From contig NZ_LWEX01000079.1 in NCBI RefSeq assembly GCF_001634885.1, positions 396-64,395 of the forward strand: a stretch of DNA of 64,000 nt, written 5' to 3'. The position numbers were made by a program, and so were the translations under genes. Below are positions 13,470 through 47,921 of this stretch, one piece after another. Position 1 is the first letter of the stretch, and each line of letters begins with the position of its first letter. Source of the stretch: Sulfitobacter sp. HI0040 (GTDB lineage Bacteria; Pseudomonadota; Alphaproteobacteria; Rhodobacterales; Rhodobacteraceae). A model generated the notes under the pieces. That model did not search any database, was not told where the DNA came from, and worked only from the letters and a program-made list of their open reading frames with translations.

Positions 13470-13940
13470 TCAGTTGACGGATTTCGCGTCCACAACATCC
13501 TTCTCGATCGCCTTGCGGTCCGATGCGATCTCGATCTGACGCGGCTTCAGCGATTCGGGCACCTGACGCACGAGGTCGATGTGCAGCATGCCATCGGCAT
13601 GGGCGGCGCCGGTCACCTGAACGTGATCCGCCAGTGCGAAACGGCGTTCGAACGCACGGGTGGCGATACCACGGTGCAGATAGGTCTTCTCTTCCTGTTC
13701 ATCGGCCTTGCGGGCAGACACGATCAGAGATTTCTCACGCACCTCGACGCTCAGATCAGCTTCGGAGAAGCCGGCCACGGCGATGGTGATGCGGTAAGAA
13801 TCGTCATCCAGCTTTTCGATGTTATAGGGCGGGTAGCTGGAGGTCGTGCCGTCGTTGGACAGGACGCGGTCCATCATGTTGGCGATCTGGTCGAAGCCAA
13901 CGCTGGACCGGTAGAGCGGTGCAAAATCATATGTACGCAT
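13470..13940 (-). CDS. Small heat-shock protein, Hsp20 family
   Basis: ATP-independent holdase chaperone of the alpha-crystallin family. 156 residues. The alpha-crystallin domain spans about residues 35-140: YPPYNIEKLDDDSYRITIAVAGFSEADLSV, an E-K-S-L-I-V-S core, then the RAFERRFALADHVQV and ADGMLHIDLVRQVPE segments. The N-terminus MRTYDFAPLYRSSVGFDQI is that of proteobacterial IbpA-like class A Hsp20s. SD AGGA lies 6 nt before the ATG. Upstream are a sigma-32-like promoter and a structured leader that buries this SD (see separate entries), so both transcription and translation should respond to heat. A strong terminator follows. Confidence 0.95.
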   Translation of the reverse strand: MRTYDFAPLYRSSVGFDQIANMMDRVLSNDGTTSSYPPYNIEKLDDDSYRITIAVAGFSEADLSVEVREKSLIVSARKADEQEEKTYLHRGIATRAFERRFALADHVQVTGAAHADGMLHIDLVRQVPESLKPRQIEIASDRKAIEKDVVDAKSVN

Positions 13941-14033
13941 GTTTCATCCTCATGTTTGAGCGATTTTACGCATGGGCCTTCCATCATTGGACAGACCCGT
14001 TTCGGTTATGCCGAAGCCCTTTGAGGCACCCCG
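13941..14033 (-). promoter_or_regulatory. Candidate ROSE-type RNA thermometer in the hsp20 leader
   Basis: 5' leader of about 90 nt. The last hairpin pairs AUCGCUC (13964 to 13958) with GAGGAU (13951 to 13946), leaving the central G unpaired opposite the Shine-Dalgarno. UCGCU fits the UYGCU anti-SD hallmark of ROSE elements, and the loop is AAACAU. Upstream hairpins can form at 14015-14001 (UUCGG/CCGAA) and 13998-13974 (GGG/CCC with UCC/GGA). ROSE elements are known to control rhizobial small heat-shock genes; assignment here is by motif and position, not by covariance search. Confidence 0.65.
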
Positions 14034-14040
14034 GCACCCG

Positions 14041-14071
14041 CCATGTGGGAATGATTCAGAAGCGTTTCAAG
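14041..14071 (-). promoter_or_regulatory. Candidate RpoH (sigma-32) promoter of hsp20
   Basis: On the minus strand, CTTGAAA at 14071-14065 and CCCACATGG at 14049-14041 are separated by 15 nt. This fits the heat-shock consensus CTTGAAA N13-15 CCCATnT well. It lies about 100 nt upstream of the hsp20 ATG, giving a leader of about 93 nt that contains the candidate thermometer. Confidence 0.65.
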
Positions 14072-14086
14072 ACCCCCGCCCAAAGG

Positions 14087-14911
14087 TCAGGGGCGTACGA
14101 ATTTCGCCCCGGTGTCCCGGTTGGGCTGGCCCACGCGGATGCGGCGGCTGCCCGGTCCTTCATGCTGAAAGACACCTTTACCCGCGACCAGTTCGGCCTG
14201 CAAAAGGGCGAGCGGCGCGCCGAGCGCAGTCCCCAGCGAAACATTGGCGCCCTCGACCTCCGCCTTGGCGGAGACGACCGATACGATATGGGGGGCACCG
14301 TCCTGAAATACGAATATCGGCGCACCGCTCGATCCGAAATCGACAGAGCATGAGGTAACGAGAACCCCCTCCTGCCGGGCGAGAACGGTGCAAACCTCCT
14401 GCAGGGAGGGGGCCTCGGACCGGTCGCGCGCATAGCTCACCACGCCGACGCTGTCGCCGGGCCGGGGGCGGGCGCCGGTGCCGAAAGGCTGGATCGTGGT
14501 GTTGTTGATCGGGCGTTCCAGTTCCAGCAGGGCCACGTCGTTGCGCACCCGGTCGGACGATACATCGCCGTCAAACACATATTCAGGATGCACCACGGCC
14601 CGGCGGATGCCGCGGTAAGCCCCGGCGCGGCCATTGCGCCATCCGGCAAGGAACTGCACCGCGCCGTGATCGATCTGCTGTTTGGTGCGGCTGTCGAACA
14701 GGCAATGCGCCGCAGTCAGGACGAGCCTGGGCGCGATCAGCGCGCCGGTGCAGAAACCCACGCCCCCGATATCGAGCCGCCCGACCGCTTCCCAGTCGCG
14801 CCCTTCGACACCGCTGTCCAACTGGCGCAGTTGCGCATCCTGTGCCAGCGCACCCTGCGCCGCGAAAAGCAGAATAGTCGCGAATACCTTCAATACACGC
14901 AATTCAATCAC
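14087..14911 (-). CDS. Secreted trypsin-like serine protease (S1 family)
   Basis: Exported chymotrypsin-fold peptidase. 274 residues. Signal peptide FATILLFAAQGALAQ cleaved near residue 23. The catalytic triad is visible: His in LTAAHCLF (about 68), Asp in RNDVALLELERP (about 125) and Ser in DFGSSGAPIFVF (about 194). The GSSGAP nucleophile form resembles bacterial S1 peptidases rather than HtrA (GNSGGP). The start may be GTG at 14911 or TTG at 14902; the latter has AGGGG at better spacing. It lies 54 nt downstream of glcF on the same strand, probably coincidentally. The C-terminal extension after the domain is Arg-rich. Confidence 0.87.
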   Translation of the reverse strand: MIELRVLKVFATILLFAAQGALAQDAQLRQLDSGVEGRDWEAVGRLDIGGVGFCTGALIAPRLVLTAAHCLFDSRTKQQIDHGAVQFLAGWRNGRAGAYRGIRRAVVHPEYVFDGDVSSDRVRNDVALLELERPINNTTIQPFGTGARPRPGDSVGVVSYARDRSEAPSLQEVCTVLARQEGVLVTSCSVDFGSSGAPIFVFQDGAPHIVSVVSAKAEVEGANVSLGTALGAPLALLQAELVAGKGVFQHEGPGSRRIRVGQPNRDTGAKFVRP

Positions 14912-28249: not shown

Positions 28250-28326
28250 CGGGCTGTAGCGCAGCCTGGTAGCGCACCTGCTTCGGGAGCAGGGGGTCGG
28301 AGGTTCGAATCCTCTCAGCCCGACCA
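28250..28326 (+). tRNA. tRNA-Pro (anticodon CGG)
   Basis: 77-nt cloverleaf with encoded CCA. Acceptor CGGGCTG/CAGCCCG, D-arm AGCGCAGCCTGGTAGCGC, anticodon stem CCTGC/GCAGG with loop TTCGGGA (anticodon CGG), and T-arm GGAGGTTCGAATCCTCT. No mismatches. Confidence 0.97.
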
Positions 28327-28442: not shown

Positions 28443-28519
28443 TGGTGACCCTGGCAGGATTCGAACCTGCAACCTGCCCCTTAGGAGGGGGCTGCTCTAT
28501 CCAGTTGAGCCACAGGGCC
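28443..28519 (-). tRNA. tRNA-Arg (anticodon CCT)
   Basis: 77-nt cloverleaf on the minus strand with encoded CCA. Acceptor GGCCCTG/CAGGGTC (one G-T pair), anticodon stem GCCCC/GGGGC with loop CTCCTAA (anticodon CCT), and T-arm GCAGGTTCGAATCCTGC. It reads AGG, a rare arginine codon in GC-rich genomes. Confidence 0.97.
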
Positions 28520-36429: not shown

Positions 36430-36505
36430 TGGTGAGCCGTGCAGGATTCGAACCTGCGACCCACTGATTAAAAGTCAGTTGCTCTACCAACTGAGCTAAC
36501 GGCCC
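36430..36505 (-). tRNA. tRNA-Lys (anticodon TTT)
   Basis: 76-nt cloverleaf on the minus strand with encoded CCA. Acceptor GGGCCGT/ACGGCTC, D-arm AGCTCAGTTGGTAGAGC, anticodon stem CTGA/TCAG with loop centred on CTTTTAA (anticodon TTT), and T-arm GCAGGTTCGAATCCTGC. Confidence 0.97.
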
Positions 36506-43739: not shown

Positions 43740-43803
43740 CAGGCGGTCTCCGTGTCTGGCGTATTTCTATTGCGCCCGTGCCGGGCCTTTGGCAACCTGT
43801 CTG

Positions 43804-43940
43804 CATTCTCAGGGCGGGGTGAAATTCCCCACCGGCGGTATGTGGCCTGCGCCACGAGCCCGCGAGCGGCCCTTCCGGGGGTGTCAGCAGATCCGGTGAG
43901 ATGCCGGAGCCGACGGTCATAGTCCGGATGAAAGAGAATG
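43804..43940 (+). promoter_or_regulatory. FMN riboswitch (RFN element)
   Basis: Canonical RFN sequence: ATTCTCAGGGCGGGGTGAAA at the 5' side, CCCCACCGGCGGTA, AGCCCGCGAGCG, GATCCGGTGAGATGCCGGAG, CCGACGGTCATAGTCCGGAT and closing GAAAGAGAAT, which pairs with ATTCTC. Followed 75 nt later by ribH2. No terminator with a T run is seen before the ATG, so translation control through the AGAGGAGA ribosome-binding site is more likely. Confidence 0.96.
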
Positions 43941-44015
43941 TGATCGGAAGGGCGCGGTGCGCTCTGCCGGTCCCGTGATCGCCTTGGGTGGATAGTGTGC
44001 CGACCAGAGGAGATC

Positions 44016-47651: not shown

Positions 47652-47700
47652 CGCATCCTCCTTTTGCGGCGAAAGGGTGTAAGGTGGATGGATGTCCAGA

Positions 47701-47784
47701 CCTTCCCTCCGCCGGTGCTAACCGGTTCAGGTTCAACGGGTCCGCGCATCACGCACATCTCAGCCTTTCGGCCCCCCGAGGTAC
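47701..47784 (-). promoter_or_regulatory. TPP riboswitch (THI element) controlling thiBPQ
   Basis: On the minus strand: CTCGGGGGGCCGAAAGGCTG with AGATG, then ACCCGTTGAACCTGAACCGG, TTAGCACCGGCGGAGGGAAGG, the conserved THI-box order including CUGAGA and ACCUGA. Downstream, CCUUU (47676-47672) can pair with AAAGG (47664-47660) of the thiB SD around a 7-nt loop, supporting control at translation initiation. Confidence 0.95.
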
Positions 47785-47921
47785 TGCGAGAGGTAATATG
47801 AGTGAGACCAACAGGCAACAGTATTAATGAAACTTCGGCAGATGGGGCGAGATCGGCACCCTGCGCCCTACATGTGAATAGACAGCCCACCGTCGGGCCA
47901 ATGATTAATGAGGAACCGATT

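Follow-up and report, generated by a model that had tools for sequence, protein, structure and literature searches.

The leader of the hsp20 gene in Sulfitobacter sp. HI0040, a Rhodobacteraceae host belonging to the Roseobacter clade, is very probably an RNA thermometer of the ROSE type in the mRNA of hsp20 (ibpA), as judged by homology, from which its behavior on heating is also predicted. The gene lies in a stretch of 64,000 nucleotides, which is called the window here. Three hairpins make up the leader, and the last of them pairs a ROSE motif with the Shine-Dalgarno (SD) sequence. A preliminary description of this DNA had read the leader as a ROSE thermometer behind an RpoH promoter and had proposed that it extends the known range of such elements or represents a separate variant. 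The reading as a thermometer is strengthened by conservation, by covariation, and by cross-detection with the ibpA ROSE of E. coli; the extension of range had to be given up, and a separate variant looks unlikely, as described below. The comparison provides evidence with covariation for ROSE-type control of hsp20 across Rhodobacteraceae, and a single alignment and model now joins leaders from Alphaproteobacteria to the ROSE of E. coli, bridging the two ROSE families of Rfam.

Promoter and hairpins of the hsp20 leader

RpoH (sigma-32-type) promoters follow the consensus CTTGAAA plus a CCCAYNT-like element at heat-shock spacing. The putative hsp20 promoter fits this pattern, with 15 nt between CTTGAAA and CCCACAT, and a looser form of it was found in 54 of 58 genus leaders and 73 of 88 family leaders. 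The preliminary description had pointed out this near-consensus promoter together with a hairpin in which UCGCU pairs with the SD and a G stays unpaired, and inspection of the sequence and its folds found them as described. The two strands of this hairpin (hairpin III) are AUC-G-CUC at 13964-13958 and GAGGAU at 13951-13946, with G13961 unpaired. Two further hairpins had been proposed 5′ of it, and the comparative analysis confirmed both and set their boundaries (Table 1).

Table 1. Features of hsp20 and its leader, in window coordinates
Feature	Position	Strand	Basis
hsp20 (ibpA-type small heat shock protein), 156 aa, candidate regulated gene	13470..13940	-	ORF; Pfam HSP20 E 6.4e-19; alignment with E. 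coli IbpA
ATG of the Hsp20 ORF	13940	-
RpoH-like promoter, putative -35, CTTGAAA	14065..14071	-	Sequence; loose CTTGA..-10 pattern in homologous leaders
RpoH-like promoter, putative -10, CCCACAT	14043..14049	-	Sequence; same loose pattern
Whole probable ROSE-type leader, genus-model match	13929..14043	-	99.4 bits; own sequence in the training set of that model
Hairpin I, bulged G at 14027	14010..14035	-	Comparative boundaries, folds
Hairpin II, bulged G at 13992; counterpart of a Rfam ROSE_2 hairpin	13974..13998	-	Comparative boundaries
Hairpin III, SD-sequestering, AUC-[G]-CUC / GAGGAU	13946..13964	-	Folds and alignments
ROSE motif UCGCU (anti-SD), bulged G at 13961	13959..13963	-	Sequence
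Shine-Dalgarno core AGGA, 6 nt before ATG	13947..13950	-	Sequence
Possible outer stem, AUGCGU (13973-13968) with start-codon AUGCGU (13940-13935)	13935..13973	-	Predicted folds

A 106-nt stretch of the leader was more stable than its dinucleotide shuffles (z = -2.53; 0 of 200 shuffles folded as well). This fold started within hairpin I and split it incorrectly; a fold of a longer leader shows hairpin I. The possible stem between the start codon and the AUGCGU upstream was rejected as a general feature, since chimeric hairpins assembled within the genus folded as well as native ones (-6.44 versus -6.17 kcal/mol). Within the family, the native fold was better than the chimeric one (-7.34 versus -6.54 kcal/mol; sd 0.17, 40 shuffles, relatedness uncorrected).

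An ORF for a trypsin-like protease (14087-14911, minus strand) ends 15 nt before the -35 element of hsp20. Its last codons read like GAKFVRP and a stop, and several relatives have a similar ending in front of hsp20, so the protease/hsp20 pair may be syntenic.

Conservation, covariation and bulged guanosines

We found hsp20 in all 58 genus genomes searched (own included) and, at E ≤ 1e-40, in 141 of 149 family genomes. The 58 genus leaders, the window's own among them, were compared with 88 family leaders drawn from 139 matching genomes of other genera (the 28 best and 60 chosen down the list). The same leader architecture preceded hsp20 in every genus genome (58/58) and in every sampled family genome (88/88). 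AGGA was present throughout both sets, and UYGCU occurred in 145 of the 146 leaders (58/58 in the genus, 87/88 in the family). A genome scan agreed with this picture: among the best 80 of 495 relatives, all 80 loci matched the family model with the same end point within the gene, these loci overlapping the genomes of the other comparative samples. The first 18 of those best 80 were all Sulfitobacter, with 83-89% protein identity. The one leader of the 146 that has no UYGCU (L133) reads AUUGCC instead, and the genus model nevertheless matches it (E 8.1e-7).

Two covariance models were used. The genus model (R1) has the 58 genus leaders as its training set; its match in the window arises by construction, and the 88 family leaders lie outside it. 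The family model (R2) contains the window and the 88 family leaders, and its matches in those genomes likewise arise by construction. R1 recovered all 88 family leaders (weakest E 6.3e-6), and at E ≤ 0.1 its single match in the 64-kb window was the hsp20 leader. RNAalifold returned the identical three hairpins from separate alignments of the genus (A1) and of the family (A2, the 88 leaders aligned with MAFFT and not fitted to a model).

Covariation was assessed in an alignment of the 88 family leaders plus the window (A3), which was fitted to the model structure and leans towards it. There, 94.2% of pair cells were standard, and 22 of 27 pairs showed a double change in one sequence or more. 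The covariation score was 0.466, compared with 0.173 after shuffling (sd 0.006; 0 of 500 shuffles reached 0.466) and at most 0.115 when the structure was slid. Hairpins I and II account for nearly all of the covariation within the family. Hairpin III hardly varies there, with double changes in two of its six pairs, as expected because one strand must match 16S rRNA.

The preliminary description had named a lack of covariation at the SD hairpin as one result that would count against its reading. Hairpin III does not vary within the genus and thus shows no covariation there; once distant relatives were included, three of six pairs had changed on both sides, in an alignment (A5) that was again fitted to the model structure and leans towards it. 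That alignment holds 62 leader matches outside the family, taken from 58 loci given to R2 (43 class loci, 14 phylum loci and E. coli); these 58 exclude the three loci that lack hsp20 (L239-L241), a repeat (L255) and the loci of the family itself. Pairing in hairpin III was 99.7% complete across the 62 matches. The outer A-U was replaced by C-G or G-C in 17 of them, the third pair C-G by U-A in 4, and the loop-closing C-G by G-C, U-A or A-U in 11. UYGCU was present in 62/62, as UCGCU in 39 and as UUGCU in 23.

In each of the three hairpins, a G on the 5′ strand is left unpaired at a distance of two to four pairs from the loop. This base was present in all 58 genus leaders in each of hairpins I, II and III. 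In the family alignment (88 leaders plus the window) it was found in 88/89, 89/89 and 89/89, respectively, and among the 62 distant matches, counting those with a base at the position, in 58/58, 55/56 and 62/62 (gaps in four at hairpin I and six at hairpin II). The bulged G of hairpin III is the known thermosensor G. Rfam ROSE_2 already shows the bulge in the counterpart of hairpin II; the literature passages searched, which come from papers other than the founding ones, did not describe a bulged G in all three ROSE hairpins, and we make no claim to a first report. The function of the 5′ hairpins is described as not fully understood in a study of the Pseudomonas element, whose counterpart of the upstream hairpins is temperature-insensitive (PMC3669281). 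This acknowledged open point becomes testable at single nucleotides, namely the bulged G of each upstream hairpin.

In hairpins I and II, strong covariation of the stems goes together with a bulged G that is nearly invariant. A recognition site might look like this, and the constancy of the bulge where the stems around it vary freely suggests that something recognizes it. The leader could accordingly be mainly a binding site for Hsp20: free Hsp20 would bind the folded leader and repress its own translation, aggregates would titrate it, and melting would be secondary or additive. We regard this as possible but rather unlikely. A parallel is E. coli IbpA, which binds its own 5′ UTR and represses translation in a manner that needs R93 and an aromatic residue at Y34; the authors of that work already suggested that the self-repression is conserved in alphaproteobacteria (PMC10474464). 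When aligned with E. coli IbpA, the window Hsp20 has the equivalent residues, Y36 and R95. Both equivalents occur in 58 of 58 Rhodobacteraceae proteins (30 from the genus, own included, and 28 others), and among 28 proteins from class loci (2 of the same family) R is present in 26 and Y in 26. These two residues may also serve chaperone structure, however, and the literature passages searched held no alphaproteobacterial test of such binding. Hsp20 binding also leaves the conserved pairing of UYGCU with the SD unexplained, whereas a thermometer explains it. The two mechanisms are compatible rather than exclusive, and self-repression of the hsp20 mRNA by Hsp20 is plausible as a second layer.

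A bolder proposal, which we consider doubtful and offer as speculation, is that ROSE leaders consist of three copies of one bulged-G hairpin module, only the third of which sequesters the SD. In the first two, the nearly invariant bulged G would then be a recognition point, most likely for Hsp20/IbpA oligomers, and the leader would integrate both temperature and the aggregation of proteins in Alpha- and Gammaproteobacteria alike.

Proposed opening of the SD hairpin

As a ROSE-type thermometer, the leader would act together with its promoter. Heat would induce transcription from the RpoH-like promoter, with the transcript probably starting at about 14036. At normal temperature, hairpin III would pair UCGCU with the SD and block ribosome binding. 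On heating, this weak hairpin, destabilized by its bulged G, would open and permit translation. Hairpins I and II would remain folded and are thought to aid the formation of hairpin III.

The calculated energy of the isolated hairpin III was -6.76 kcal/mol at 25°C, -4.90 at 37°C and -4.08 at 42°C, and that of the E. coli ibpA hairpin was -6.34, -4.60 and -3.83 kcal/mol at the same temperatures. In nearest-neighbor folding, the probability that the SD is unpaired was 0.01 at 25°C, 0.04 at 42°C and 0.07 at 48°C for the window, and 0.006 at 25°C and 0.037 at 42°C for E. coli ibpA. No melting was thus predicted up to 48°C for the window hairpin, and the E. coli element behaved alike in the model. 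Because both hairpins stay closed in it, we did not accept the energy calculations as evidence of melting. Omitting the bulged G in silico made hairpin III 3.8 kcal/mol more stable at 37°C. In the ROSE-like element of oppF, deletion of the bulged G is described as notably lowering heat induction (PMC11342760). Single deletions in hairpin II of P. aeruginosa ibpA, including that of G39, a base not equated with the bulged G in the passages searched, repressed expression (PMC3669281).

A fold without predicted melting at 42°C would also suit a structured 5′ UTR of a general kind, one that shields the message or adjusts basal translation and does not sense temperature. We hold this to be very improbable: the exact ROSE motif is conserved together with its bulged G, the energy profile is almost equal to that of the E. 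coli ROSE, and the leader is homologous to that element.

Relation to known ROSE elements and detection by covariance models

ROSE elements are defined by a terminal hairpin in which U(U/C)GCU pairs with the SD around a bulged G (PMC3669281, PMC11182007). The terminal hairpin of the hsp20 leader shows this imperfect pairing, and of the two to four hairpins expected in such elements, with the SD in the 3′-proximal one, the leader has three. It lies directly 5′ of a small heat shock gene and would be transcribed as its 5′ UTR from the putative promoter. Homology ties it to an experimentally studied ROSE through the ibpA leader of E. coli K-12, one of the best-studied ROSE-like thermometers (PMC3669281). 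A FourU thermometer was considered and rejected: four U residues should pair with the SD, and the anti-SD strand is AUCGCUC.

The homology was established with the family model. In 19 kb of E. coli K-12, R2 matched two leaders, that of ibpA with 46.7 bits (E 2.6e-12) and that of ibpB with 27.1 bits (E 1.1e-6). The ibpA match spans the full length of the model, with the three hairpins in register and ibpA downstream, and the energy of hairpin III is nearly equal in the two species. In contrast, the E. coli leader scores 100.4 bits with RF01832 and the window 18.4, the sequences differ outside the conserved arms, and E. coli has a second leader match, before ibpB. The three-hairpin architecture is common to distant Alphaproteobacteria and E. 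coli ibpA, and the leader does not look like a separate variant.

Classical ROSE (RF00435) is the rhizobial type. The window leader resembles it in its place 5′ of a small heat shock gene, its several hairpins and its terminal U(U/C)GCU on the SD; it differs in that this leader and all 61 family genomes (own included) stay below the RF00435 cut-off of 45 bits. RF00435 has 15 sub-threshold matches in 14 of those 61 genomes, and 12 of the 15 are located on the hsp20 leader. The short ROSE-like element of Pseudomonas ibpA has the same UYGCU/SD hairpin behind a stable, temperature-insensitive hairpin in a sigma-32-dependent gene, and has two hairpins where the window leader has three (PMC3669281). 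ROSE-like motifs were reported in 2011 upstream of ibpA and hspD in strain R11 of the Roseobacter clade, which are like the window leader, by their description, in clade, gene type and motif class (PMC3230580). A ROSE in a Rhodobacterales Hsp20 leader therefore does not widen the known range.

Rfam at its curated thresholds did not report the hsp20 leader, which falls short of both RF01832 (65 bits) and RF00435 (45 bits). In a relaxed search of 13800-14200, the sole match was ROSE_2 (RF01832), with 18.4 bits against the cut-off of 65 and E 0.23 over 4,227 families; this sub-threshold match is in register with the start codon and ends at AUGCGUA. A better ROSE_2 score, 20 bits, was obtained elsewhere in the genome, within the span of a 414-aa ORF on the opposite strand, and Rfam scores alone were therefore rejected as proof. 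The ORF reads like mnmA. Under stricter filters, RF00435 found nothing at E ≤ 1 in the genome that holds the window. In the 289 class genomes at E ≤ 0.1, RF00435 matched 44, only one of them above its cut-off, and we therefore treated the curated score as a limit of detection and not as a defining trait. Rfam's two ROSE families thus detect few such leaders, the 44 genomes of RF00435 comparing with 105 for the family model at the same E value; R2 matches overlapped 24 of the 47 RF00435 matches.

R2 gave 115 matches in those 105 of 289 Alphaproteobacteria genomes (4 genomes of the same family) and none at E ≤ 0.1 in the other 184, counted whether or not they carry hsp20. In the best 30 loci (4 of the same family), hsp20 started in register in all, 11 nt before the end of the match. 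Of 20 matches chosen from rank 49 to 115, 17 had hsp20 in register (10 or 11 nt); the three loci without hsp20 had E values of 0.0023, 0.0068 and 0.057. Across 299 phylum genomes, 54 had a match at E ≤ 0.01, and of these 54 genomes 13 lie outside the class. From the R2 training set, the class scan included the window, and the phylum scan included the window and four other genomes (G080, G131, G132 and G176); the newly fetched phylum loci lay at hsp20 in 26 of 26 cases, four of these from those four training genomes. In three genomes outside the class (L253, L261 and L264) and in E. coli (L221), hsp20 genes stand next to each other, and every one of them has a separate leader match.

The motif alone is weak evidence, because UYGCU-N3-14-AGGA occurs six times on the two strands of the window, the hsp20 leader included. 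The leader is more than such a chance occurrence, since UYGCU is conserved in the genus and family leaders and the genus model matches the window only at hsp20. Chance resemblance, for which one could cite the three of these motifs that have an ATG nearby (that of hsp20 among them) and the Rfam match below cut-off, is refuted to near certainty by the architecture shared by every genus and family leader and by covariation that no shuffle reached.

The genome has two hsp20 genes. The leader of the second (L004:1306-1390, contig C35) was compared with 40 genus counterparts (L181-L220), chosen from 56 other genus genomes with that gene. GUC-G-CUU stands opposite an AAGGAC-like SD in 41/41 of these leaders, and an RpoH-like CTTGY..CCCATAT lies upstream in 39/41. 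One GC-rich hairpin, identified by eye, precedes the SD hairpin. R1 did not match L004 at E ≤ 0.1; R2 weakly matched six of the eight second-hsp20 leaders tried (E 3e-5 to 0.013) and missed L195 and L220. This leader looks like a ROSE-type element with a shorter, two-hairpin layout, as in Pseudomonas. Two ROSE-type leaders in one genome agree with the ibpA and hspD motifs described in strain R11, if hspD is the counterpart of the second hsp20 (PMC3230580).

The window contains other RNA features as well. An FMN riboswitch (43801-43943, plus strand) and a TPP riboswitch (47687-47788, minus strand) scored above the Rfam cut-offs, and three tRNA genes lie at 28250-28323, 28446-28519 and 36433-36505.
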